Below are positions 3,841 to 29,271 of a DNA stretch of 32,646 nt, piece after piece. How positions within the stretch are numbered: position 1 is the stretch's first letter; every line of letters starts with the position of its first letter. A model generated the notes under the pieces. That model saw only the letters and a program-made list of their open reading frames with translations. It ran no database searches and was not told the DNA's origin. Source of the DNA: Oscillochloris sp. ZM17-4 (lineage in GTDB: Bacteria; Chloroflexota; Chloroflexia; Chloroflexales; Chloroflexaceae). A program made the position numbers and the translations under genes. The stretch spans positions 5,475 through 38,120 of the forward strand of contig NZ_JAIEWN010000051.1 in assembly GCF_019599295.1 (NCBI RefSeq). Direction: 5' to 3'.

Positions 3841-3879
3841 GAGAGAGGCCAGAAGGGCGGAGCCCTTCTGGCCTCTCTC
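3841..3879 (-). terminator. Perfect 18-bp hairpin with triloop after serA
   Basis: Positions 3841-3858 and 3862-3879 are perfectly complementary around a GGA loop. The hairpin starts 11 nt past the serA stop codon. No U-tract follows on the minus strand, so it is not a classical intrinsic terminator. It may end or process the serA transcript. Confidence 0.7.
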
Positions 3880-3890
3880 GTCCGAGGACT

Positions 3891-5468
3891 CTACAGCGTG
3901 ACGCTGTAGGCCTGGTCGATATCGTCGAGGGCGCGGATGTGCTCCAGCACATCGGGCGAGGCCTGCTCGTCGAGGGTCAGCACCATCATGGCGCTCTGGC
4001 GGGGCGACTGACGGCCCACGTACATCCCCGAGATGTTCACATCGTCCTCGCCGAGCAGCATGCCCACCCGGCCGATCATGCCCGGCCGGTCGCGGTGGTA
4101 GGTGATCAGCAGCGAGCCCTGGGGCACAAAGTCCACAAAGTAGCCGTCGGACTGGACAATGTGCGGCTCGCCGCGCAGCACCGTGCCACTGAAGGTGCGC
4201 AGCGCGTCGGCCGTCTGCACCTGGATGACCAGCAGTCCCGAGTAGTTCTCGGCGTCGGGGCTGGTGCGCTCGCTGATGCGCATGCCGCGGTCGCGGGCGA
4301 TCAGCGGCGCGTTCACCGGCGTGACTCGCTCGGAGCTGTTGGCCGAGAGCAGGCCCTGGAGCACGGCCAGCCGCACGGGCTGCGTGTCCACGTGGGACAG
4401 CTCGCCGCAGTACTCGATCTCGTAGCCGCGCACCGGCTCCTGCACCAGCTGCATGATCAGCGAGCCCATGCTGCGGGCCAGGCCGAGGTAGGGCTGGAGC
4501 ACGCTCCAGGCCTCGGGGGCCACGAAGGGCGCGTTCACCGCGTAGCGCGGGGTGGCCCCAGACAGGGCGGCCACCACGCCCTCGGCCACATCCGTCCCGG
4601 CCGAGGTCTGGGCCTCGGCGGTCGATGCGCCGATGTGGGGCACGGTGATAATCTTCGGGTGGCCGAGGAGCATGCTGTCGGCCGGGGGCGGCTCGACGTT
4701 GAACACATCCAGGGCGGCGCCGCCGAGCCGGCCCGCGTCGATCGCCTCGACCAGCGCGGCCTCATCGACGATCCCGCCGCGCGAGGCGTTGAGCAGGTAG
4801 GCGCCCGGCTTCATCTGAGCGATGCGCGCGGCGCTAAACAGGTTGCGGGTGCCGTCGGTCAGCGGCACGTGGATCGAGATCACATCGCTGCGCGCCGCCA
4901 GCTCGTCCATCGTCACCAGCTCCACGCCCATCTGCTCAGCCCGGTCGAAGGAGACCACCGGGTCGAAGGCGAGGACGGTCATCTCCATGGCGCGGGCGCG
5001 GTGGGCCACCTCCGAGCCGATCCGGCCCAGCCCGACTAGGCCAAGCGTCTTGCCGCGCACCTCCCAGCCGACGAACTTGGTGCGCTGCCACTTGCCGCCC
5101 TGGAGCGAGGCGTGGGCCTGCGGGATCTGGCGGGCCAGCCCGAGGATGAGGCCGATCGTCAGCTCGGCCACCGCCACGTTGTTGGAGGCCGGCGCGTTCA
5201 CCACGATGATGCCCCGGCGGGTGGCGGCGTCCACATCGATGTTGTCCACGCCGGTGCCGGCCCGGCCAACCACCCGCAGCTTCGCGCCGGCCTCGATAAC
5301 CTCGGCGGTGACCTTCGTGGCCGAGCGCACCACCAGGGCGTCGTACTCCCCGATCACGGCCAGCAGCCCGGCCTTGTCCAGGTCTAGCTTTACGTCAACC
5401 TGGGCCCCGCGGCCCAGCACGGCGACCCCCTCGTCGGCGATCTTCTCAGTGACAAGAATACGATCCAT
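3891..5468 (-). CDS. serA: D-3-phosphoglycerate dehydrogenase, long form
   Basis: This cytoplasmic enzyme oxidises 3-phosphoglycerate with NAD, the first step of serine synthesis. The 525-aa length marks the long form: substrate and Rossmann domains (1-310), an intervening ASB domain (about 315-445) and a C-terminal ACT domain (about 450-525). The NAD site is GLGRIG (146-151) with an acidic residue at D169. The catalytic residues R230 (NASRGG), E259 (NVEPPP) and H278 (PHIGAST) are all present. The ACT domain predicts serine feedback. Before the ATG is an AAGGGG site, and before that a composite heptamer array fills the gap to gmhA. The gene looks intact. Confidence 0.98.
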   Translation of the reverse strand: MDRILVTEKIADEGVAVLGRGAQVDVKLDLDKAGLLAVIGEYDALVVRSATKVTAEVIEAGAKLRVVGRAGTGVDNIDVDAATRRGIIVVNAPASNNVAVAELTIGLILGLARQIPQAHASLQGGKWQRTKFVGWEVRGKTLGLVGLGRIGSEVAHRARAMEMTVLAFDPVVSFDRAEQMGVELVTMDELAARSDVISIHVPLTDGTRNLFSAARIAQMKPGAYLLNASRGGIVDEAALVEAIDAGRLGGAALDVFNVEPPPADSMLLGHPKIITVPHIGASTAEAQTSAGTDVAEGVVAALSGATPRYAVNAPFVAPEAWSVLQPYLGLARSMGSLIMQLVQEPVRGYEIEYCGELSHVDTQPVRLAVLQGLLSANSSERVTPVNAPLIARDRGMRISERTSPDAENYSGLLVIQVQTADALRTFSGTVLRGEPHIVQSDGYFVDFVPQGSLLITYHRDRPGMIGRVGMLLGEDDVNISGMYVGRQSPRQSAMMVLTLDEQASPDVLEHIRALDDIDQAYSVTL

Positions 5469-5484
5469 AAGATTGCCCCTTGAA

Positions 5485-5568
5485 TTGCAGATTGCAGATT
5501 GCAGATTGCAGATTGCTGGTTGCTGATGCGCTGCGCCTCTACCCTGTGCCCTATCCGCTGTACCCTGG
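5485..5568. repeat. Composite heptamer array, in-phase decay from TTGCAGA to ACCCTGT type
   Basis: Read on the plus strand, four exact TTGCAGA units (5485-5512) are followed in strict 7-nt register by TTGCTGG, TTGCTGA, TGCGCTG, CGCCTCT, ACCCTGT, GCCCTAT, CCGCTGT and ACCCTGG (5513-5568). On the sense strand of serA the clean part reads GCAATCT and lies directly before its ribosome-binding site. The array fills almost the whole gap between the gmhA stop (5571) and the serA start. Confidence 0.85.
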
Positions 5569-5570
5569 CC

Positions 5571-6137
5571 TTACCCCACCACCCGCCCCTCAAGCTCCTC
5601 GCAGATCGCGTGGAGGATGAGCGTGTGAACCTCCTGGATGCGGGCGCTGCTCTCACTAGGCACGACCAGGGCGTGGTCGGCCAGCTCGCGGGCGGCCCCG
5701 CCACCCTTGCCAAGCATAGCGATGCTGGTTACGCCGAGGGCGCGGGCGGCGCGCAGGGCGGCCAGAATATTGGGCGAGCCGCCGCTGGTGCTGAAGAGCA
5801 CGAGCAGGTCCCCAGGGCGAGCCAGGGCCTCCAGCTGGCGGGCGAAGACCTGCTCGAACCCGAAGTCGTTGGCGATGCAGGTGATCGCGCCGACATCGGT
5901 GTTCAGGCAGACGGCGGGGAAGGGCCGGCGCGTGGCCCGGTAGCGGCCCACCAGCTCCTCCGCCAGGTGGATGGCGTCGGTGGCGCTGCCGCCATTCCCG
6001 CAGGTGAACAGGGTCCGCCCGGCGATCAGGGCGTCCGCCGCCAGGCGACAGATCGCGTCCGCCGCGTCGGCCTGGGCGGCGAAGGCATGGAAGACGGCGC
6101 GGCTCTCGTCGAGCTGGTCGCGAAAGAGCGTAGGCAT
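5571..6137 (-). CDS. gmhA: Sedoheptulose-7-phosphate isomerase (SIS domain)
   Basis: It converts sedoheptulose-7-phosphate to heptose-7-phosphate, the first step of ADP- or GDP-heptose synthesis for surface glycans. The product is 188 aa, close to the family's 190-195. The SIS fold shows GNGGSA (47-52), the active-site pair H57 and E61 in the AIHLAEELVGRYR segment, and the C-terminal QEVHTLILHAICEE helix with the conserved Gln and His. These match GmhA better than DiaA. The ATG at 6137 gives the usual N-terminus; a GTG at 6149 is possible. Neither has a clear Shine-Dalgarno site. It is upstream of serA in the same direction. No other heptose gene is in the window. Confidence 0.88.
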   Translation of the reverse strand: MPTLFRDQLDESRAVFHAFAAQADAADAICRLAADALIAGRTLFTCGNGGSATDAIHLAEELVGRYRATRRPFPAVCLNTDVGAITCIANDFGFEQVFARQLEALARPGDLLVLFSTSGGSPNILAALRAARALGVTSIAMLGKGGGAARELADHALVVPSESSARIQEVHTLILHAICEELEGRVVG

Positions 6138-6149
6138 CGTGGGCACCAC

Positions 6150-6274
6150 AAGGGGCGAAGCGCCCCGGCCGGCCCGGTGCGCCTCGCCCCTACATCATCG
6201 TCGGGCGAATGAGGCCGTATGATACCACTGTTCCCACCCACCGATGTTATTTGTGCCCAGCAGGCACATGCGGC
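6150..6274. other. Intergenic stretch upstream of gmhA
   Basis: No gene is supported here. A small inverted repeat, TGTGCC-CAGCA-GGCACA, lies at about 6251-6267. No convincing minus-strand promoter for gmhA was found. Open frames in this stretch continue into the hairpin and MITE and look non-coding. Confidence 0.5.
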
Positions 6275-6325
6275 ACTGATGGTGCTGCGGCGCGGCTACG
6301 CCGCGCCGCAGCACCATCAGTTTTT
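6275..6325 (+). terminator. 22-bp perfect hairpin with triloop plus T tract
   Basis: Positions 6275-6296 pair perfectly with 6300-6321 around a TAC loop, and TTTT (6322-6325) follows on the plus strand. The form is that of an intrinsic terminator reading rightward, but no plus-strand gene lies before it. It may instead block antisense transcription, or be one of the long triloop hairpins of this genome. The MITE copy at 6326 begins directly after the T run. Confidence 0.6.
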
Positions 6326-6532
6326 GTTAGCGCGAATAAGCGCTGGGTCAAGCCCCACCGGCTGGCGACTGACGTCGCGCCGGAGCGGCGCTGCGCGCCG
6401 GGCGTCGGCCTGCGCCGACGCTGGAACCGCCCGCGTCGGCGGGCGGTTGGCCGGAGGCCCCCGCGCTGCGACTTCAGTCGCGAGCGGGGCCACCGACGCT
6501 CCCAGGTTTACCCAGCGCGTATTCGCGCTAAC
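6326..6532. mobile_element. 207-bp MITE-like element, copy 1
   Basis: It is bounded by terminal inverted repeats of about 23 bp: GTTAGCGCGAATAAGCGCTG at the left and the inverse of GTTAGCGCGAATACGCGCTG at the right. The interior is very GC-rich with nested inverted repeats. It is about 97% identical (7 differences counted by eye) to the equally long copy at 12123-12329. The flanking 8-mers CAGTTTTT and CAATCTTT match at 6 of 8 positions and may be a decayed target-site duplication. It carries no credible ORF, so it must rely on a transposase in trans. Frames are open on both strands only because of base composition. Confidence 0.9.
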
Positions 6533-6591: not shown

Positions 6592-6613
6592 ATGCATTTC
6601 CAGGGCGGCGCCC

Positions 6614-6880
6614 CTACGCGCGCTTCCAGTCGCGGAACAGCGCCAGCAGCTGGCCGCGCTCACCGGCGGCCAGCCGGTCGGCGTGGAGGCCGCCAGCAAG
6701 GCGGATGGTGAGGCGGATCTGCTCGACGTAGTCGTGGCAGGGCGGGCACATGTCCAGGTGGCGCATAAAGCGCGCCGCGTCCTCCGGCGCGAGCGCGCCC
6801 TCCAGGTAGTCGGTCACCGCCTCGACCAGCTCCTGGCAGGTCAGGTCGTCCGGCGTCGGGACGGGTGGCTGAGACGTCAT
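6614..6880 (-). CDS. Zinc-finger anti-sigma factor (ZAS type)
   Basis: An 88-aa soluble protein expected to bind and inhibit the ECF sigma factor encoded just upstream. The ZAS zinc motif is complete: H41-x3-C45-x2-C48 (HLDMCPPC) with an upstream C15 in a TCQEL helix. A short basic C-terminal helix ends in RDWKRA. There is no transmembrane segment, so it is a cytoplasmic anti-sigma that probably responds to thiol or zinc state. Its ATG overlaps the sigma stop in an ATGA junction, a sign of translational coupling. A longer upstream frame exists but runs antiparallel to the sigma gene's composition and is not the real start. Confidence 0.9.
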   Translation of the reverse strand: MTSQPPVPTPDDLTCQELVEAVTDYLEGALAPEDAARFMRHLDMCPPCHDYVEQIRLTIRLAGGLHADRLAAGERGQLLALFRDWKRA

Positions 6881-7545
6881 AGATATCCCTCCGACAGATA
6901 GCCGGCGAGCGCGCCGCGCACCTTCGAGCGGGCACGGTGGAGCAGCACGCGCTGGTTGGCCTCGCTGATGCCGAGGGCCTCGCAGACCTCGCCGGAGGCC
7001 CAGCCCTCGATGTCGCGCAGGGTGATCACGGCGCGCTGGGCGGGGGGCAGCGCGCTGATCGCATCGTCGATCTTCGCCCGGGTCTCCTGTGCCAGCAGCC
7101 GGCTCTCGGGCACCGCGTCCCAGCTCTGCGGGTGGCGGCTCCACCAGCCGGCGTACTCGTGGCCGGGCGGCAGGAACTGATCCGGGTCGACCGCCGGCTC
7201 GTCGCCCTCGGCGTCGGCGCGGGCCAGGTCGGCGAAGGTCACGCTGCGGCCCTCGCGCTGGCCCCTGGTGCGCGCCCGCTTGGTCAGGATGCTGTAGAGC
7301 CAAGTCTTCAGCGAGGAGCGCCCCTCGAACTGGCCGATGCCCTTCAGCACGCCCATCCACGTCTCCTGGACGACCTCCTCGGCGATGGCCCGGCTGGGGA
7401 CGTAGGCCTGGGCGAGCCGGACGAGCCGCGTGTGGTAGCGCTCGATCAGCACCACGAAGGCGGCCTCGTCGCCCCGCCGCAGCGCCGCGATCAGGCGCAG
7501 CTCGTCGCCTGCGCCATCCTCGGCAAAGCTAGGCTCTGTGGTCAT
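6877..7545 (-). CDS. ECF-type RNA polymerase sigma factor
   Basis: A 222-aa sigma-70-family factor with region 2 at about 24-95 (EVVQETWMGVLKGI; SLKTWLYSILTKRA) and region 4 at about 160-215 (LPPAQRAVITLRDIEGW; ALGISEANQRVLLHRARSK). The linker (about 100-150) is longer than in minimal ECFs and has a Pro/Tyr/Trp-rich stretch. It directs RNA polymerase to a stress regulon that cannot be named from sequence. It is coupled to the anti-sigma gene by an ATGA overlap. An extended -10 element lies about 67 nt upstream, and a G-rich heptamer array sits at the -35 position. Confidence 0.95.
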   Translation of the reverse strand: MTTEPSFAEDGAGDELRLIAALRRGDEAAFVVLIERYHTRLVRLAQAYVPSRAIAEEVVQETWMGVLKGIGQFEGRSSLKTWLYSILTKRARTRGQREGRSVTFADLARADAEGDEPAVDPDQFLPPGHEYAGWWSRHPQSWDAVPESRLLAQETRAKIDDAISALPPAQRAVITLRDIEGWASGEVCEALGISEANQRVLLHRARSKVRGALAGYLSEGYL

Positions 7546-7611
7546 GCGTCGCTCGCTCTGTGGCGCCGCGCGGTGCCGTAGGCGCAGCAGCCGGTGTTGG
7601 GTGGATGCTGC

Positions 7612-7620
7612 ATTGTACCA
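7612..7620 (-). promoter_or_regulatory. Extended -10 promoter element before the sigma gene
   Basis: The minus strand reads TGGTACAAT, an extended -10 (TG-N-TACAAT), about 67 nt before the sigma start codon. The same 11-mer GATGGTACAAT occurs on the minus strand at 16042-16052 before the 69-aa gene. The -35 position would fall inside the heptamer array. Confidence 0.5.
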
Positions 7621-7626
7621 TCACCT

Positions 7627-10257: not shown

Positions 10258-10443
10258 AGAGTAGGTACGCTTTATCTAATCAGAAGAGCACACGTGTAGA
10301 AGGGCACACGTGATGATCGGTGTCGGCGCGTGCTCAGGGTGAATGCACCCATGAACAGGCGCAGTATACCGCATACGCATAGCGCGCCCGCAGGGTAGGT
10401 GCTGGCTTTTGGTTGTAGTAAACGCGGCCAAGTGTTGCGGTGG
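10258..10443. other. Intergenic stretch between prfC and the ISL3 scar
   Basis: No gene is supported. It contains the tandem 16-bp repeat described separately and a somewhat AT-richer stretch at 10360-10435. Frames entering it from the transposase remnant are out of context. Confidence 0.5.
10282..10313. promoter_or_regulatory. Two tandem 16-bp repeats with CACGTG cores upstream of prfC
   Basis: AGAAGAGCACACGTGT (10282-10297) and AGAAGGGCACACGTGA (10298-10313) are adjacent direct repeats differing at two positions. Each holds a palindromic CACGTG core. They lie 25-56 nt before the prfC start codon, where a promoter or operator would be expected. The binding factor is unknown. Confidence 0.45.
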
Positions 10444-10512
10444 CTACAGCCCGGCCCGGTCGAGCCTCTCGCGCAGGGCGCGCAGGGCGGCGGGGATGTA
10501 GGTGGCGCTCAT
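10444..10512 (-). pseudogene. Short gene fragment, HNH-endonuclease-like N-terminus
   Basis: A 22-codon frame, MSATYIPAALRALRERLDRAGL, ends in TAG. Its first residues resemble the start of stand-alone HNH endonucleases (a TYIPAALR type beginning before the CxxC motif), but the HNH core is absent. It abuts the cut 3' end of the ISL3 transposase remnant, so it may be debris from the same rearrangement. This is only a resemblance in a very short stretch; it could be chance. Confidence 0.2.
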
Positions 10513-10514
10513 TA

Positions 10515-11600
10515 CTCGCTCGCCCATACGCGGTTCGCTTGATTAGCTTGAGCCGGTTGATGTGCCCCTCGGTCAGACCGTTGGTCTCTTTGTACTTGAG
10601 TGCTCCCATCACTGCGTCCTTGTCGCGCACCCTCCGGTGAAGCCCTTCGCCCGTAGCTCACGCCAGAGTTGCCGACTATTCTGCTCCCCCGCTTGCCAAC
10701 GCTCTCGGAGATACGGTTCATACGGCGTGATACTCATACGTCGTGGCCGTGACGGTGGCCGTTCGGGAAAGCTTCCTGCCCGCAGCCAGAGCGCCACCGT
10801 CTGCCGTGTCAGCCCGACCCGCTGGGCAATCGCCTTCGGGCCGAGCCCCAAGCTCGCCAGCGCAATCACCTCCTCGTAGCGGGCAAGCCGGCGCTGTTCT
10901 GCTGGTGATCGTTGTGCTGGGCTGGTTTTGATGCTGGGCAGGGGGAGCGGATGAGGCAGAGGAGGTGGCTGTACTGCTTCGGTAGGTGGAGTCATCTGCT
11001 GAGCCCGCTCGTGATCGATGGCCTTGGCTGCCAGGCGTAAGCCCTGGTGGTTGCGCTGGATTACCCGTTCGCGTACCTCACCCGCGTTTTTGGCCAAATG
11101 GAAGCGATCCGCTACCTGGATAGCGTGCGGAGCGCCGATGCTGATCGCACGGCGGTAATCGGCCGAGCGATCACGAGTGACCAATTCAATACCTGGGTGG
11201 TTTTCTAACCAGGCTGCAGCAGTCTCGGCAGTTCGGTCGGGGAGGAGGTCACCCACAGTGTGACGCTCACCATCGGTGAGAATGGTGCCGAAGATCTGGC
11301 CTTTGCGAAAGGAAAAGTCATCGATGCCGAGCACGCGAGGTGGTGGAACGGTGGGAGAGGAAGCGGCATGAGCGCGTCGAAGCAGGGTGTCACCGCTCGC
11401 AGGCATCGCACTTCGAGCGCTCTGGCGAGCTCCAGCCTCACCACCAAATGCCAGAGCCAGGTCACGGAGCGTCTCATTACGAACTGGTAGCCCACCGCCC
11501 GCCGCGCCAGCGCCCGCCCTGACATCCAGCGCCTCAATCCTCGCGGCTCCGCGCCAGCCACGTACGCCGGCGATGTTTGATAGCGTGCGACCGGCGACGC
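10515..11600 (-). pseudogene. ISL3-family transposase remnant
   Basis: The DDE region of an ISL3 transposase is clear. It shows GIDDFSFRKGQIFGTILTD with the first Asp, then TAETAAAWLENHPGIELVTR, then IQVADRFHLAKNAGEVRERV with the second Asp. A helix-turn-helix follows (GLGPKAIAQRVGLTRQTVAL) with RERWQAGEQNSRQLWRELRA. At about 10637 the frame jumps directly to RDKDAVMGALKYKETNGLTE, which carries the third acidic residue, so roughly 130 residues seem deleted and the join is out of frame. The N-terminal zinc-finger part and the usual C-terminus after YGRAS are missing. No terminal repeats were found. It is a dead copy, and shares no ends with the 207-bp MITE. Confidence 0.85.
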
Positions 11601-11692
11601 CTGGCCCGCGCTGGGCCTGCCGCCGCTGCAACGCTGAGGTTGGCGCAACCGCGAAGTTCTGCCCCGGCTGCGGCGCGACCCTGGAGCTTTAG
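11573..11692 (+). pseudogene. C-terminal zinc-ribbon stump
   Basis: The last 27 or so codons read WACRRCNAEVGATAKFCPGC then GATLEL and stop: a C-x2-C ... C-x2-C zinc ribbon of the kind found at the end of SPFH, virion-core-like and similar bacterial proteins. The codons before it overlap the antisense of the ISL3 remnant, so the original N-terminus was probably lost when the element inserted. An ATG at 11573 exists but lacks a ribosome-binding site. It lies 81 bp before the DUF4352-like gene and may once have been its operon partner. Confidence 0.45.
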
Positions 11693-11773
11693 CCGCCTGC
11701 CGGGCGCATTTGCGCCTGGGCCTGTCCCTACACTGTGATCAGGAAACGTCTGCATCACAGAAAGGGACGACCG

Positions 11774-12618
11774 ATGTTCAAGAAGCTTGGCCTGGGCTGC
11801 CTGGGCCTGATCGGGGCGCTGTTCGTGCTGGGGGTGATCGGGGCCGCGCTGGGCGGCGGCCGCAGCCGTGAGGCCACCCTGGTGGCCACCGCCGCGCCAG
11901 CAGCCACCGAGGCGGGCCTTGTGGGCGAGGCGGTCGCGACCAACCCGGCGCCGACTGATGCGCCCGCTGCGATGGAGGCCCCGGCGGCGACGGCCACGCC
12001 AAGCGGGCCGCAGGTGTACACGGTCGGCGACGTGGTGCAGTTGGGCGATGTGGCCCTCGCCGTGCTCGGCTGGAGCAAGCCGGAGGGCACCCAGTTCGCC
12101 AAGCCCGAGGCGGGCAAGACTTGTTTGCGCGAATAAGTCCTGGGTCAAGCCCCACCGGCTGGCGACTGACGTCGCGCCGGAGCGGCGCTGCGCGCCGGGC
12201 GTCGGCCTTCGCCGACGCTGGAACCGCCCGCGTCGGCGGGCGGTTGGCCGGAGGCCCCCGCGCTGCGACGTCAGTCGCGAGCGGGGCCACCGACGCTCCC
12301 AGGTGTACCCAGCGCTTATTCGCGCTAACCAAGACTTTCATCGCCGTCGAGCTCCTAGTGCTCAACCAGGGCGCTCAGTCGGCCAACCTCTCCACCCTGG
12401 CCCAGATGAGCCTGAAGGACGGCGAGGGCCGGCGCTACACCATCGACCTGCTCGCCGCGATGGCCGTCGGCGGTGCGGCGCCCCAGGGCGAGCTCGCGCC
12501 AGGCGAGACCGTGCGCGGCCCGGTGGGCTTCCAGGTGCTGGCCGACGCCAGCGGGCTCTTGTTCATCTTCGACGGCGATATCTTCGGGGCGGGGAAGGTC
12601 TTCGTCCAGCTGCCGTAA
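11774..12618 (+). pseudogene. DUF4352-type secreted protein gene, interrupted by a MITE
   Basis: The N-terminus MFKKLGLGCLGLIGALFVLG (1-20) is a signal or anchor helix. An Ala/Thr/Pro-rich linker follows (about 35-80), then a beta-rich domain beginning YTVGDVVQLGDVALAVLGW. Translation hits a stop 4 codons into the inserted element. After the element the frame resumes as TFIAVELLVLNQGAQSANLS and ends FGAGKVFVQLP. Removing 215 bp (207-bp element plus one 8-bp duplication) restores GKTFIAVELLVLNQG, a typical DUF4352 core, and a protein of about 209 aa. The disruption looks recent, since both halves keep clean coding sequence. The start at 11774 has an AAAGGGA site. The function of DUF4352 domains is unknown; they are extracellular immunoglobulin-like folds. 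Confidence 0.88.
12123..12329. mobile_element. 207-bp MITE-like element, copy 2, with 8-bp target duplication
   Basis: The ends are GTTTGCGCGAATAAG at the left and CTTATTCGCGCTAAC at the right. It is flanked on both sides by CAAGACTT (12115-12122 and 12330-12337), an exact 8-bp target-site duplication. Inside, GCGACTGACGTCGC and GCGACGTCAGTCGC form a second, perfect inverted pair, so the element can fold almost end to end. Size and sequence match copy 1 at 6326-6532. It carries no transposase. Confidence 0.95.
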
Positions 12619-12624
12619 CGACGT

Positions 12625-12678
12625 GCGGAGATGGCGAGGCGGGCGGCATCGTGATGTCGCCCGCCTCGTCATCTCCGC
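12625..12678 (+). terminator. 21-bp hairpin after the DUF4352 gene
   Basis: Positions 12625-12645 pair with 12658-12678 with one mismatch; the 12-nt loop has an inner CATC/GATG pair. It begins 7 nt past the stop of the broken gene and ends just before the GGAG site of the next small ORF. There is no T-run. Confidence 0.7.
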
Positions 12679-12690
12679 AGGAGCGTGATG

Positions 12691-12921
12691 ATGATGGATA
12701 ACGCATCCCTATCCCGGCCCTCCACGGAGCGCCAGCGACTCATCGAGGGCTGGCTGCCGCTGGCACAGGAGGCCAACCAACGGTATGGCTGGGACCTGGA
12801 CGCCCCAGCGCTGGAATCTTTGATTATGAGCGCAGCAACAGCGCTGGAAAGAGCCGGGAGTACCGTAGCGTCGTATGCAATCCTCTGGTTCGCCTATCAG
12901 CGCCTGCGCCATGACGGGTGA
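12691..12921 (+). CDS. Small hypothetical protein
   Basis: A helical protein of about 76 aa that I do not recognise. It is rich in amphipathic segments (RQRLIEGWLPLAQEANQRYG; LESLIMSAATALERAG; ASYAILWFAYQRLRHDG) with many Trp and Tyr residues and no cysteine or membrane span. The start is one of four tandem codons (GTG 12685, ATG 12688, 12691, 12694); 12691 has the best spacing from GGAG at 12680-12683. Base composition is clearly less GC-rich than the flanks and continues so to 13020, suggesting foreign origin near the transposon scar. It could be a remnant of a larger accessory gene. Confidence 0.5.
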   Translation: MMDNASLSRPSTERQRLIEGWLPLAQEANQRYGWDLDAPALESLIMSAATALERAGSTVASYAILWFAYQRLRHDG

Positions 12922-13027
12922 CAGAGGCAACATCTGAACACCTTGTAACCATAGGGACAGGTAGTGATTTACTGCAAACGAAACCCCGCATCACTGAAGC
13001 CGAAAGTCAGCACCTACAACAAGCGCG

Positions 13028-14401
13028 CTACCCCCGCTTCGTCGCCGCCGAGATCCGCATCAGCAGGCCGATGATCAGGAAGTTGATCAGGACGGAGGAG
13101 CCGCCGTAGGAGATGAAGGGCAGGGTGATGCCGGTGAGCGGGATGAGCCGCAGGTTCCCGCCGATGATGATGATCGTCTGCACGGCGATGATCGTGGTCA
13201 GGCCGACGGCCAGCAGCTGCTCGAAGCCGCGGAAGCGCCCGGGGATGGAGAGGGCGATGTGGAAGCCGCGGAAGATCAGCAGCACGTAGGCGATCAGCAC
13301 GGCCAGCGTGCCGGCCAGGCCCATCTCCTCGCCGATCGCCGTGAAGATGAAGTCGGTGTGGATGGCCGGCACGATCGCCGGCACGCCCAGCCCCAGCCCC
13401 GCCCCGAAGATCTGCCCCGAGGCCAGGGCGTAGATCCCCTGCACGATCTGGTAGCCGTAGCCCTGCGCCACCGCCCACGGGTCCAGCCAGATCTCTACGC
13501 GCAGCGAGACCACCGGCAGGATCTGGTAGAGCGCGTAGGCCCCCACGCCGAAGGCCAGCACCGCCGCCAGCACGTACAGCGCCCGCCCCGTGGCCGTGTA
13601 GAGCATTGCCAGGAACACCCCGAACAGCAGCAGCGCCGCCCCCAGGTCGCGCTGGAAGACGATCGTCGCCATCGCCAGCCCCCACATGCCGATGATCGGC
13701 ACCAGGTACGGCAGCGGCGGCAGGGTCAGCGGGCCGAGCCGGTAGCCCGAGGAGACCACCTCGCGGTGCTCGTTCAGGTACGAGGCCATGAAGATCACCA
13801 GGATGATCTTTAGCAGCTCCGATGGCTGGAAGAGGAAGGCCCCGAAGTTAAACCAGACCTTCACCCCGCTGCCGTTCGGGTCCACGCCGAAGACGAAGGT
13901 GGCGAAGATCAGCAGCATGCCGGCGGCCAGCCAGATGTAGCGGTAGTGGTCGAGGACGTCGATCAGCGAGAGCCGCAGCCAGCGGATGCAGAGCTGGTCC
14001 CAGGGCACGAAGAGCATCAGGGCCAGCACGGCCACGCCGATCGTCACCCAGAGCGACTGCTTGGCGGCCACGCCGGCGTAAGTGTCGCCGTAGAGCGCCT
14101 GGAGGCTCGGGTCGAGCCGCGAGGTGAGCATCAGGCTGAGCCCGGCCAGCAGGGCCACCAGCGGCAGCAGCACCTGGTCGGCGTCGGGGCTGAGGAAGCT
14201 CAGGCCCACCGAGATGCCGATGAAGAGCAGCAGCGGCAGCGCCGAGGGCCAGAGGATGCTCAGCACCCCCGGCACGGTGGCCACAAACTCCCGCTGCTGC
14301 GTGGCCGCCACCACCAGCAGGTAGCCCGCCCCGAAGAAGAGCAGCACCGTGATCAGGAGCTGGAACTCGACCCCGCGAAATTGGCGCAGACGCTGGAGCA
14401 T
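13028..14401 (-). CDS. FtsW/RodA/SpoVE (SEDS) peptidoglycan glycosyltransferase
   Basis: A 457-aa polytopic membrane protein that polymerises lipid II in elongation or division. About ten TM segments are visible. SEDS landmarks are KVWFNFGAFLFQPSELLKI, HTDFIFTAIGEEMGLAGTL (the HTDFIF loop is where the catalytic Asp is usually placed) and the C-terminal LTGITLPFISYGGSSVL. I cannot decide between RodA and FtsW: no partner PBP is adjacent. The ATG at 14401 is chosen because the 20 codons further upstream are translated TTGAATG repeats. No Shine-Dalgarno site is present. It is downstream of the threonine ammonia-lyase gene, with a two-armed array filling the gap. Confidence 0.94.
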   Translation of the reverse strand: MLQRLRQFRGVEFQLLITVLLFFGAGYLLVVAATQQREFVATVPGVLSILWPSALPLLLFIGISVGLSFLSPDADQVLLPLVALLAGLSLMLTSRLDPSLQALYGDTYAGVAAKQSLWVTIGVAVLALMLFVPWDQLCIRWLRLSLIDVLDHYRYIWLAAGMLLIFATFVFGVDPNGSGVKVWFNFGAFLFQPSELLKIILVIFMASYLNEHREVVSSGYRLGPLTLPPLPYLVPIIGMWGLAMATIVFQRDLGAALLLFGVFLAMLYTATGRALYVLAAVLAFGVGAYALYQILPVVSLRVEIWLDPWAVAQGYGYQIVQGIYALASGQIFGAGLGLGVPAIVPAIHTDFIFTAIGEEMGLAGTLAVLIAYVLLIFRGFHIALSIPGRFRGFEQLLAVGLTTIIAVQTIIIIGGNLRLIPLTGITLPFISYGGSSVLINFLIIGLLMRISAATKRG

Positions 14402-14406
14402 AGTAG

Positions 14407-14470
14407 GAATGCTGAATGTTGAATGTTGAATGGTGAATGTCCGGCATTCACCATTCAACATTCAACATTT
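14407..14470. repeat. Two-armed heptamer array (GAATGTT type) with TCCGG loop
   Basis: The left arm (14407-14439) reads GAATGCT, GAATGTT twice, GAATGGT, GAATG. The loop is TCCGG. The right arm (14445-14470) reads CATTCAC, CATTCAA twice, CATTT. The variant unit GAATGGT in the left arm is mirrored by CATTCACCATTC in the right arm, so the pairing is kept where the repeat varies. It spans the gap between the ilvA stop and the SEDS start. Confidence 0.95.
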
Positions 14471-14474
14471 AAAA

Positions 14475-15704
14475 TTAAAACTCGGCCACGTCCCGCTGGC
14501 ACGTGTAGCCCGCCTCGGCCATGCGGGCGATCACCGCCTGGGCGTGATCCTCGCCGCGTATCTCCAGCACCAGCTCGACGCCGACCTTGGTGACGGGCAG
14601 GTGCCACTCGGCCCGCCGGTGGAAGACCTCGACGATGTTCGCGCCGGCGGCGGCCACCGTGCTGATCAGGCGGGCCAGGTTGCCCGGCCAGTCCTCGACG
14701 ATCGTGCGCAGCAGCAGGTAGCGACCCTGGTGAACCATGGCCGTCTGCAGCACCCGTGTCAGCAGGGTCGGGTCGATGTTCCCGCCGCACAGGATGGTCG
14801 CGGCCGTCTCGCCGGGGCGCAGCCCGACCTTGCCGGCCATCAGGGCGGCCACGCCGGCGGCCCCGGCGCCCTCCACCACCAGCCGGCTGTTCTGGAGCAC
14901 GTGGGCGATCGCCAGCACGATCTCGTCCTCCTCGACCGTCACCACGTCGTCCACGAGCTCGCGGATGATCGGCAGGGTCAGCTCGCCCGGCCGCTTGACG
15001 GCGATGCCGTCGGCGATGGTGTTGGCCGCGCTGGCGCTGACGGGCTGGCCGGCGCTGAGCGATGCGGGCACCGGCGCGCAGCCGGCGGCCTGCACGCCGA
15101 CGATCCGCACGTCGGGGCAGAGCGCCTTGATCGCGATGGCGATCCCGCCGATCAGGCCGCCGCCGCCGATCGGCACCACCAGCAGGTTGATCCCCGGCAG
15201 GGCCTCGGCCAGCTCCAGGCCGATCGTGCCCTGGCCCGCGATCACCCGCGGGTGGTCGAAGGCGTGCAGGTAGGTCAGCCCGCGCTCCTGCTGGAGCATG
15301 CGGGCGTGGGCCACGGCGTCGTCGAAGCTGGCCCCGTGCAGGATGACCTCGGCGCCCAGCCGGCGCGTGGCGACGACCTTGGTCAGCGGGGCGCGCTCGG
15401 GCATGACGATCACGGCCCTCACGCCGGTGAGCTGGGCGGCCATGGCCACGCCCTGGGCGTGGTTGCCCGCCGAGGGCGCGATCACCCCGCAGGCCCGCTC
15501 CTCGGCGCTCAGGTGCATGATCGTGTTGTAGGCCCCGCGGATCTTGAACGACCCGCTGTGCTGGGTGTTCTCGGCCTTGTACCAGATGGTGGCGCCCAGC
15601 TCGGATGAGAGGCGCGCGGCGGGCAGCAGCGGCGTGGCGATGATCATGTCGCGCAGGGTGCGCCGCGCCGCCTGGATGTCTGCGAGGGTGACGGGTAGGC
15701 TCAT
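14475..15704 (-). CDS. ilvA: Threonine ammonia-lyase with ACT domain
   Basis: This PLP enzyme deaminates threonine to 2-oxobutanoate (isoleucine precursor or threonine catabolism). The product is 409 aa, the short form. PLP Lys54 is in SGSFKIRGA, the phosphate loop is PIGGGGLIGG, and SAGNHAQGVA is the substrate loop. A single C-terminal ACT domain (about 330-409) begins YLLLRTIVEDWPGNLARLIS. The single ACT puts it between catabolic TdcB and long biosynthetic IlvA, so the symbol is tentative. ATG at 15704 or 15710; the extra upstream codons in the frame are heptamer repeats. Neither start has a Shine-Dalgarno site, and the array arm touches the 15710 codon. Confidence 0.94.
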   Translation of the reverse strand: MSLPVTLADIQAARRTLRDMIIATPLLPAARLSSELGATIWYKAENTQHSGSFKIRGAYNTIMHLSAEERACGVIAPSAGNHAQGVAMAAQLTGVRAVIVMPERAPLTKVVATRRLGAEVILHGASFDDAVAHARMLQQERGLTYLHAFDHPRVIAGQGTIGLELAEALPGINLLVVPIGGGGLIGGIAIAIKALCPDVRIVGVQAAGCAPVPASLSAGQPVSASAANTIADGIAVKRPGELTLPIIRELVDDVVTVEEDEIVLAIAHVLQNSRLVVEGAGAAGVAALMAGKVGLRPGETAATILCGGNIDPTLLTRVLQTAMVHQGRYLLLRTIVEDWPGNLARLISTVAAAGANIVEVFHRRAEWHLPVTKVGVELVLEIRGEDHAQAVIARMAEAGYTCQRDVAEF

Positions 15705-15710
15705 ATACAT

Positions 15711-15779
15711 AATGTTGAATGCTGAATGCTGAATGTTGAATGCCGACATTCAGCATTCAACATTCAGCATTTAACATTA
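15711..15779. repeat. Two-armed heptamer array (GAATGTT/GAATGCT) with CCGA loop
   Basis: The left arm is 15711-15742, the loop is CCGA (15743-15746), and the right arm is 15747-15779 with CATTCAG, CATTCAA, CATTCAG, CATTTAA, CATTAA. GAATG cores pair throughout; the 2-nt linkers pair fully or as wobble at most positions. The outermost right unit contains the stop codon of the 69-aa gene. Confidence 0.93.
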
Positions 15780-15986
15780 ATCCCCCAGCTCCTCGTGCAC
15801 GTTGGCCGCCTGGGAGGCCACCAGGCGGAATCGCCGGGCGCTGTCCTTGTCGCCCGCGCCCTCGGCCGCGCGCATCAGGATGCCGGCGGCGTACTGGAGC
15901 TGCCGCAGCTCCTCGCGTCGGCCCTCCAGCCGGTCCTGCGCGATCTCGCGCTCCATATGGGTGATGATCTGGTCGATGCTTAGCAT
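15777..15986 (-). CDS. Small helical hypothetical protein (69 aa)
   Basis: The ATG at 15986 has an excellent AAAGGAG site 5 nt upstream, which makes this a real gene. The 69-aa product is acidic-basic and fully helical (MLSIDQIITHMEREIAQDRL; EELRQLQYAAGILMRAAEG; SARRFRLVASQAANVHEELG), with no cysteine or membrane span. I do not recognise a family. It heads the ilvA-SEDS gene string. An extended -10 (TGGTACAAT) lies 56-64 nt upstream, with a 20-bp palindrome beyond it. The stop codon is shared with the heptamer array. Confidence 0.78.
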   Translation of the reverse strand: MLSIDQIITHMEREIAQDRLEGRREELRQLQYAAGILMRAAEGAGDKDSARRFRLVASQAANVHEELGD

Positions 15987-19003: not shown

Positions 19004-19037
19004 GCAATCTGCAATCTGCAATCTGCAATCTGCAATC
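19004..19037. repeat. Single-arm heptamer array (GCAATCT)x4.9
   Basis: Four exact GCAATCT copies plus GCAATC, followed by AATAAGGAG, the ribosome-binding site of yghZ. The layout matches the glmS leader: sense-strand GCAATCT, then AAGGAG, then ATG. Confidence 0.97.
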
Positions 19038-20053: not shown

Positions 20054-20833
20054 ATGAACACACCCCTCGCCGGCCATGTCGCCTTCGTCAGCGGGGCGGG
20101 CACCGGGATCGGCTACGCGGTCTGCCGGAGCCTTGCGGATGCGGGCGCGCTGGTGGCGCTCAACGACATCGACCCGGACGCGGCCAGGGACGCGGCGGCG
20201 CGGCTGAACGAGGGGCGCGTGGCCGATGCGGTGCGCGCCTACCCCGGCGACATCGCCGACGTGGAGTGGGTGCGGGCGACGATTGATGAGGTCGGCGCGC
20301 GGCTCGGCGGCCCGCACATCTGCGTGGCAAACGCCGGGATCACCCGCTTCGGCTCCTTCCTCGACGATGAGCCCACCGGGTTCGACCGGCTGATGGCGGT
20401 GAACCTGCGCGGCACCTACTTTACCGCCCAGGCCGCCGCGCGGGCCATGATCGCCCAGAAGATCGCCGGGCGGATCATCCTGATGGCCTCGGTGACCGGC
20501 ATCCGCGTGGTGGGCGGCCTGGGCACCTACGGCATCTCTAAGGCCGGGATCATGGCCATGGCCCGCGCCCTAGCCGTCGAGCTCGGCCCCCGCGGCATCA
20601 CGGTCAACGCCGTCGCCCCTGGCGCCACCGTCACCGAGCGCACGCTCAGCGAGACGCCGCACTACGAGCGCGACTGGGGCGCGCTTATGCCCGCCGGCCG
20701 GGCCAACCAGGGCTCCGATATCGCCGCCGCCGTGCGCTTCCTGGCCTCGCCCGAGGCCGCCCAGATCACCGGGCAGACCCTGGTGGTGGACGGGGGCTGG
20801 TCGCTCTCCGGGCGGATGCCCGAGGGGTATTAA
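20054..20833 (+). CDS. Short-chain dehydrogenase/reductase
   Basis: A 259-aa NAD(P)-dependent SDR of the classical type. The cofactor motif is SGAGTGIG (13-20), NAG lies at 93-95, catalytic S146 is in LMASVTG, and the YGISK box gives Y159 and K163. The C-terminal ITGQTLVVDGGWSLSG is the usual tetramer/substrate end. The Asp residues in LNDIDPD after the second strand favour NAD over NADP. The substrate is unknown; a sugar or polyol is likely beside yghZ and the glycosidase cluster. The ATG at 20054 has GAGGAG overlapping the yghZ stop; a GTG at 20039 is in frame but less likely. Confidence 0.93.
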   Translation: MNTPLAGHVAFVSGAGTGIGYAVCRSLADAGALVALNDIDPDAARDAAARLNEGRVADAVRAYPGDIADVEWVRATIDEVGARLGGPHICVANAGITRFGSFLDDEPTGFDRLMAVNLRGTYFTAQAAARAMIAQKIAGRIILMASVTGIRVVGGLGTYGISKAGIMAMARALAVELGPRGITVNAVAPGATVTERTLSETPHYERDWGALMPAGRANQGSDIAAAVRFLASPEAAQITGQTLVVDGGWSLSGRMPEGY

Positions 20834-20834
20834 T

Positions 20835-20906
20835 AATGTTGAATGTTGAATGTTGAATGTTGAATGCAGCTACGCATTCAACATTCAACATTCAACATTC
20901 AACATT
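20835..20906. repeat. Two-armed heptamer array forming a perfect 32-bp hairpin
   Basis: The left arm (20835-20866) is AATGTT plus three GAATGTT and GAATG. The loop is CAGCTACG. The right arm (20875-20906) is four CATTCAA plus CATT. The two 32-nt arms are exact reverse complements. The array begins 1 nt after the SDR stop codon and ends 43 nt before the S9 peptidase start, which has its own AGGAGG site. Confidence 0.98.
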
Positions 20907-20949
20907 GGGTGCAACACCTGCGCGATCCTGACTATCCGAGGAGGCTCCC

Positions 20950-28299: not shown

Positions 28300-28312
28300 G
28301 TGCCCTCCGGGC

Positions 28313-28388
28313 AAATGTTGAATGTTGAATGTTGAATGTTGAGTGTCCGCATTCAGCATTCAACATTCAACATTTAACATTCAACATT
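28313..28388. repeat. Two-armed heptamer array with TCCG loop
   Basis: The left arm (28313-28345) is AAATGTT, three GAATGTT and GAGTG. The loop is TCCG. The right arm (28350-28388) is CATTCAG, CATTCAA twice, CATTTAA, CATTCAA, CATT. It fills the 87-nt gap between DUF58 (its stop codon lies in the last unit) and the BatA-like gene. Confidence 0.95.
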
Positions 28389-29271
28389 ATCTCAGCACGC
28401 CGCGCCTGCGCATCTGCGAGAGCACAAACTCATCGACGGGGACGGAGGTATCGACGGCCAGGTAGCTCATGCCGCGCCCGTTGCAGAAGCTCTCGATCTC
28501 CTCGCGCCAGCGCTCCAGGCCCTCGCGGTAGCGCTGGATCAGGCCGATGTCGGCGCTGATCTCCACCGGATCGCCGCCCTCCACATCCACCAGCGTAAAG
28601 TCGCCGTCGAGATCGGGGGCGATCTCCTGGGGCGCCAGGACGTGCATCACCGTCACCTCGAAGGGCCGCGACGAGAGCGCGCCGAGGGCCTCCTTCCAGC
28701 CGGGGTCGAGCAGGTCGGAGCAGAGCAGCAGCGGGCCGGGGGTGCGCGCCGTCTGCATGTAGGTTCGGCAGGACTTCGCCAGGTCGCCGCCCTTGCCGGG
28801 CGCGAGGCGCTGGAGGAAGCTGAACAGCGGGATGGCCCCGCGCTTGCCGCGCACGCTGGGCATGGGCACGGCCTGCGGCCCCGCGCCGAAGGCGCTCACG
28901 CTCACCCGGTCGAGGTTGCTCAGGGCGATGTAGCCGTAGGCGCCGGCCAGCCGCTTGGCATACTGCAGCTTGTTGGGCGCGCCCCAGTCCATGCTGGCGC
29001 TGGTGTCCACCAGCAGGTGGACGCTCAGCTCCTCCTCGGCCACGAACAGCTTCAGGTAGAAGCGCTCGGCGCGGGCGTAGAGGTTCCAGTCGATCTGGCG
29101 GATGTCATCGCCGCTCGTGTAGGGCCGGAAGTCGGCGAACTCCACCGACGAGCCGCGCCGCGGGCTGCGCCGCTCGCCCTGGATGTCGCCCGCCATCGCC
29201 CGCCGGGTGAGGATCGACAGATTGTCCAGCTTGCGGATGAATGATGATTCGAGGAGGGGTTCGGTGGTCAT
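28387..29271 (-). CDS. DUF58 domain protein
   Basis: A 294-aa soluble protein of the DUF58 family found beside MoxR ATPases. The core signature is FADFRPYTSGDDIRQIDWNL (about 46-65), followed by a VWA-like fold with a DxSxS segment (LLVDTSASMDWG). The N-terminal half also contains RRAMAGDIQGERRSPRRGSS, the basic stretch before the core. It likely cooperates with MoxR in folding or activating a membrane complex; the exact role in Chloroflexota is unknown. The ATG at 29271 has GAGGGCAT upstream. A 24-bp hairpin lies between it and MoxR. Confidence 0.92.
   Translation of the reverse strand: MTTEPLLESSFIRKLDNLSILTRRAMAGDIQGERRSPRRGSSVEFADFRPYTSGDDIRQIDWNLYARAERFYLKLFVAEEELSVHLLVDTSASMDWGAPNKLQYAKRLAGAYGYIALSNLDRVSVSAFGAGPQAVPMPSVRGKRGAIPLFSFLQRLAPGKGGDLAKSCRTYMQTARTPGPLLLCSDLLDPGWKEALGALSSRPFEVTVMHVLAPQEIAPDLDGDFTLVDVEGGDPVEISADIGLIQRYREGLERWREEIESFCNGRGMSYLAVDTSVPVDEFVLSQMRRRGVLR

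Follow-up and report, generated by a model that had tools for sequence, protein, structure and literature searches.

A probable ISKra4-type MITE with a putatively exchangeable hairpin cassette in Oscillochloris sp. ZM17-4

Within the p-MULT superfamily, which includes ISKra4, the pertinent sections of the published description put inverted repeats at 18-39 bp and direct repeats at 8 or 9 bp (PMC3942029). Bacterial MITEs, as portrayed in the relevant portions of a review, are short and non-coding, with inverted ends, a target duplication, many copies and a strong fold (PMC10969869). The element described here has all of these MITE properties. It lies in a 32,646-nucleotide stretch of Oscillochloris sp. 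ZM17-4 DNA, the whole of which we call the window, and is present there in two copies (Table 1). With a probability of about 85%, we read copy 2 as a non-autonomous transposable element (MITE) moved in trans by an ISKra4-like transposase and carrying an exchangeable hairpin interior.

Table 1. Coordinates of features in the window, and insertion sequences (ISs) of other genomes that have the same ends.
Feature	Location	Strand	Size or remark	Genome
MITE copy 2	12123..12329	+	207 bp	
Left target-site duplication CAAGACTT	12115..12122	+		
Right target-site duplication CAAGACTT	12330..12337	+		
Left terminal inverted repeat (ISKra4-like IS ends)	12123..12145	+		
Right terminal inverted repeat	12307..12329	-		
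Hairpin core, common to elements with other ends	12151..12282	+	six short hairpins; nhmmer	
DUF4352 gene, N-terminal part	11774..12136	+	stop TAA 12134-12136 in the element's left end	
DUF4352 gene, C-terminal part	12331..12618	+	PF11611 positions 35-121 of 122	
MITE copy 1	6326..6532	+	207 bp, no target duplication	
Hairpin core of copy 1	6354..6485	+		
Other interspersed hairpin repeat immediately left of copy 1	6250..6325	+		
Seven-base tandem repeats	1-40, 5484-5523, 14401-14480, 15704-15780, 19004-19037, 20828-20908, 28307-28397			
Full-length IS with MITE ends	L115		1629 bp	G003
Full-length IS with MITE ends	L118		1667 bp	
Full-length IS with MITE ends	L186		1632 bp	G033
Full-length IS with MITE ends	L187		1628 bp	G004
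Full-length IS with MITE ends	L188		1621 bp	G012

Copy 2 holds no transposase gene between its 23-bp inverted ends, which we designate class A. The 8-bp duplication that the sequence-only reading had reported is indeed exact on both sides; in a 400-kb sample of the same genome, an exact 8-bp repeat at this spacing is present at 33 of 397,943 positions. The end motif GTTWGCGCGAATA occurs four times in the window against 0.35 expected, and the interior folds far more strongly than shuffled sequence (z -9.2). The two copies, previously put at about 97% identity, differ at 7 of 207 positions.

That the element splits a DUF4352 gene is well supported by alignment, as the two parts, compared separately with an uninterrupted homologue (L225, genome G017), meet in adjacent columns with the residues KT common to both. 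The N-terminal part (11774-12121) ends in GKT, its frame running on to the TAA within the element, and has no Pfam match of its own up to E 10; the C-terminal part begins KTFIAVELL and matches PF11611 (DUF4352) at E 1.7e-14. With its duplication the insertion amounts to 215 bp, which shifts the reading frame. Uninterrupted homologues of the kind proposed as a check on the split do exist, but they are distant, at 41-45% identity, and none is found in five congeners. Matches to the C-terminal part occur in 4 of 31 genomes, the source genome included, and in the congeners the surrounding region (10300-13027) has repeats and short stretches in common but no long DNA counterpart. Given that distance and the absence from the five congeners in which an orthologue was sought, no allele of this particular gene lacking the insertion was seen. 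The MITE reading is upheld by the gene halves aligning end to end with the uninterrupted homologue, by the exact duplication and by the many copies found genome-wide.

Counting copies and duplications across the source genome, a 6.69-Mb draft in 182 contigs, gave at least 53 BLAST matches to the element (40 of 346 first-look candidates were scored), 12 of which cover about 200 bp or more. A 15-base end motif, allowing one mismatch, occurs 99 times, compared with three times for its reversed control. Duplications were checked in 17 rows. Setting aside two rows with a missing end and one cut short by the edge of its contig, 14 copies are testable, with an exact duplication in four (L001, L002, L008 and L018), a match at 7 of 8 bases in one and no duplication in nine, copy 1 among them. 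Nine MITE-sized elements with class A ends in other genomes comprise five with exact duplications, two with 7 of 8 bases and two with none. Taken together, ten exact duplications (nine from MITEs, one from an IS) always have A at position 2, and A or T makes up 79% of their bases, in a window with 70% G+C. One copy, at L018 1301-1647, is 347 bp long with an exact duplication, AACGGTTT, and its core seems to hold another inverted-end element (ACGCTTGGTGTGAGATC...).

In a wider survey, the element has matches at E 0.001 in 24 of 61 genomes, mainly to the core only or the ends only. The named contigs picked up by an exact-end scan belong to Oscillochloris MAGs, to Chloroflexales ZM16-3 and to other Chloroflexi, with two Caldilineaceae contigs as outliers. 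Two loci of a Caldilineaceae MAG (L219 and L220) have exact class A ends around a different hairpin interior, and the L220 duplication matches at 7 of 8 bases; horizontal spread is a possible source of these ends. A search of plasmids with the element returned one 38-bp match only, in a Streptomyces record, and a search of phages returned none.

Copy 1 is a different case. Its flanks, CAGTTTTT and CAATCTTT, show no duplication, and in a comparison with the congener ZM16-3 the window is colinear with contig C91 over 3851-6235 and with contig C95 over 6606-7621. As its flanks lie on different ZM16-3 contigs, copy 1 marks a breakpoint, which could reflect either recombination of one copy with another or a join made in assembly. 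The earlier claim that the pair shows recent activity therefore leans on copy 2 and does not extend to copy 1. Of the hairpin repeat immediately to the left of copy 1, 74 bp are 97% identical to the left flank of a copy on contig C161, and the repeat has several matches in genome G003. Elsewhere in the window, seven-base tandem repeats (GCAATCT, TGAATGT) form large inverted repeats, several of them right at gene starts.

Solitary ends are frequent in the source genome, some at N gaps or contig ends and others leading into unrelated DNA. In one-ended copies such as L034, L035, L040, L041, L048, L049, L056 and L057, the intact outer end adjoins AT-rich DNA, and the opposite side is broken at variable points, near base 35 in L035, L040 and L058. 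Deletion or assembly may account for these copies. There is a real chance, although we lean against it, that the assembly, and not biology, produced copy 1 and the one-ended copies through joins at a hard-to-sequence repeat, in keeping with the several element ends that fall at 100-N gaps or contig ends and with the two-contig placement of the copy 1 flanks. However, many one-ended copies pass into other DNA without any N, and rearrangement between copies would give the same picture.

The sequence-only reading regarded the mobilising transposase as unknown. It can now be predicted with good confidence, from comparative sequence data, to be an ISKra4-like (Mutator-type, p-MULT) enzyme, as the same ends of about 23 bp surround such genes in five relatives. 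A related transposase is found at E 0.001 or better in 18 of 61 genomes, the source genome included. Six genomes have near-complete genes with an identity of roughly 50% or higher, and in five of the six the MITE's ends lie on both sides, which makes these ISs autonomous elements with shared ends; the sixth locus (L185) runs off its contig. MITE copies match the IS ends at 27 of the first 28 bases, and the inverted ends common to both measure 23-27 bp. Among the five ISs, a single one shows an exact 8-bp duplication, another shows a 9-bp duplication with one mismatch and three have none, so that inverted and direct repeats alike fall within the p-MULT ranges. Other, partial near-relatives have one end or no end, and six distant ISKra4-like homologues (27-32% identity) have no flanking pair, although two of the six contain a 3-mismatch match to the end within the gene. 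The search for ends flanking a full transposase thus succeeded in relatives, but the source genome yielded fragments only and no intact gene was seen there. One solitary end in that genome sits directly 3' of the C-terminus of an ISKra4-like fragment, and an IS110-type gene adjoins this fragment, overlapping its upstream part.

The best family model for the transposases is NF033572 (ISKra4; E 3e-30 and 1e-30), followed by ISLre2; as the scores of 105.7 and 107.2 bits fall below the model's cut-off of 205, we use the label ISKra4-like. No transposase family in Pfam was matched by these proteins. The N-terminal stretch of about 80 codons is offset by +1 in frame in L115, L186, L187 and L188 (4 of 4), and L118 has a single frame; in L115 and L187 the frame break adjoins a T/C homopolymer run. 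A programmed frameshift or slippage is possible in these four ISs. For the MITE itself, an ISKra4-like transposase would be supplied in trans, from a copy since lost, decayed or unassembled, and would cut the MITE's ends and insert it.

Nearer at hand is an ISL3-type transposase fragment with an HTH_23 tail (window 10609-11631, minus strand). ISL3 elements make 8-bp target duplications, so both proximity and duplication length would suit a model in which this adjoining gene moves the element with the GTTAGCGCGAATA ends. We nevertheless rejected it as very improbable, since the gene covers just positions 1-107 of the 240 in PF01610, under half the domain, and in five genomes the genes lying between these ends are ISKra4-like, not ISL3.

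The core of about 130 bp also recurs in elements whose ends are of at least four other types, here called B (CAGGGCATGTGCAACGTC), C (GGGTG...CTTGCA), D (CATATCTTTACCCACATCT) and E (GGTGCAGGCATGAATTGTCAGG). A 400-kb sample of contig C1 contains six core loci, one of class A, three of B and two of C, which extrapolates to about 100 core loci per genome. In a non-random set of 85 loci drawn from BLAST hits (two loci were fetched twice, and one duplicate row was removed), the loci with both ends recognised number 12 for class A, 16 for B, two for C, three for D and four for E; a single end was recognised in 26 and none in 21, and some class labels depend on one recognisable end. Duplication lengths differ as well, those for C, E and shifted B borders being read by eye from the flanks: 8 bp for class A; 10 bp for class B (exact at the set borders in L131 and L241, after small shifts in others, with no duplication in most class B rows); 9 bp for class C (2 of 2); and 9 bp for class E (3 of 4, the borders being off by one base). 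Class D shows none in three loci. Conversely, class A ends enclose unrelated interiors in other genomes, where nine class A elements lack any core match even with the threshold relaxed to E 10. Among 20 class B or D loci selected on the basis of their ends, 16 likewise lack one. No full-length IS with ends of type B or D was found among the matches listed; the class B ends we take to resemble those of the ISAs1 family. Two arrangements may be recorded here. First, in L111 (G001, contig C551) the core lies between a left end of class D and a right end of class B, possibly as a hybrid element. Second, several class D elements (L268-L278, in G001, G003, G004 and G005) lie within the loop of CCCCAGCCCCCTCTCCC-type hairpins, which also form the interior of class B elements, giving palindromes nested in palindromes.

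A tree of 69 cores (132 columns, IQ-TREE) carried end labels assigned by hand, with weak spots at L111 (mixed D/B), L244 (uncertain) and L016, L020, L233 and L242 (one recognised end). The 17 class A cores on this tree need three changes of end type, at least two of them forced by starred branches: L233, a class A core from ZM16-3, is sister to the class B core L242 of the source genome (100/95), and the remaining class A cores group with the class B core L020 (94/87). A single clade of class A cores was rejected (AU p 0.0008), for a group chosen after the first tree; gene conversion is a possible source of error in the 132 columns of palindromic sequence used.

The core's structure was assessed in 34 diverse sequences. 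The sequence-only reading had described the interior as nested palindromes; strong folding is borne out, but the covarying structure is a row of six short hairpins, not one nested palindrome. Along this chain 97.7% of cells pair, 10 of 33 pairs have changed on both sides, and double-changed cells number 49, a value that no shuffle out of 500 reached (9.7, sd 2.4); compensatory changes are present in all six hairpins. The number of pair types is not raised over shuffles (467 of 500 as high). A long-range stem joining the outer arms, with double changes at two pairs and four cells, was set aside as the main fold for its weak covariation. These compensatory changes, together with the distribution of the core across the order, could suggest that the core is a structured RNA or DNA element of the host, maintained by selection, with transposon ends as incidental vehicles. 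We think this quite improbable, as five loci gave only two chance-level Rfam matches and gene conversion can preserve pairing in palindromes; either selection or such conversion can have kept the pairing of the core.

How ends and interiors came to be combined is less certain. Most likely they would be swapped at the hairpins, through template switching or recombination, and such exchange would let one hairpin cassette travel under several transposases. The core might instead be mobile in its own right, inserting into other MITEs or hairpin loops, a notion to which the 21 of 85 core loci without recognised ends (two fetched twice), the coreless elements with B and D ends (16 of 20 loci) and the element held within the 347-bp copy all lend something. 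We judge it unlikely, given that the core borders show no duplication or terminal structure of their own and that element length is nearly constant in classes A and B. Returning to exchange between ends, a bolder and somewhat doubtful extension is that a self-contained hairpin cassette parasitises several unrelated transposases by swapping terminal repeats, being copied between MITE shells during replication or repair, so that the folded core and not the transposon family is the persisting unit.

Our analysis assigns a probable mobiliser to an abundant MITE family of the Chloroflexales and shows that ends and interiors combine independently. If the cassette idea is true, MITE families defined by ends and those defined by interiors record different histories, and it may be a folded DNA core that persists. 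In the open-licence literature we found nothing on this element, on MITEs of Chloroflexales or on exchange of core and ends, and CGACTGAAGTCG appeared only in a plant-virus paper.

Among described systems, the ISKra4 group (p-MULT 4) is alike in that its repeat ranges fit and its model, NF033572, is closest to the transposase, and the corresponding sections of its description mention no MITE of the group (PMC3942029). It differs in that here the scores lie under the curated cut-off and about 80 N-terminal codons stand in another frame in four of five ISs. Some ISKra4/p-MULT members insert upstream of sigma-A promoters. The flanks here are T-rich and often beside hairpins. Compared with MITEs in general, one interior under several end types is unusual, and the relevant portions of the review mention neither ISKra4 nor Chloroflex, nor mosaic, chimeric or shared-core MITEs (PMC10969869). 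TIMEs, the Tn3-derived mosaic elements, are likewise non-autonomous with a replaceable core, but in the account given in the sections concerned they combine a single kind of end with varied cores or genes (PMC4133298), whereas here a single hairpin core has varied ends and duplication lengths. REP/BIME and GTAG repeats, as outlined in part of their source, are similarly palindromic, interspersed and often extragenic, some lying within other palindromes, although they measure 20-40 bp (PMC3733652), in contrast to six hairpins over about 130 bp within the inverted ends of a DDE-type transposon. The element is best read as an ISKra4-type MITE whose hairpin cassette is probably exchangeable, and thus as a variant within a known kind of element.
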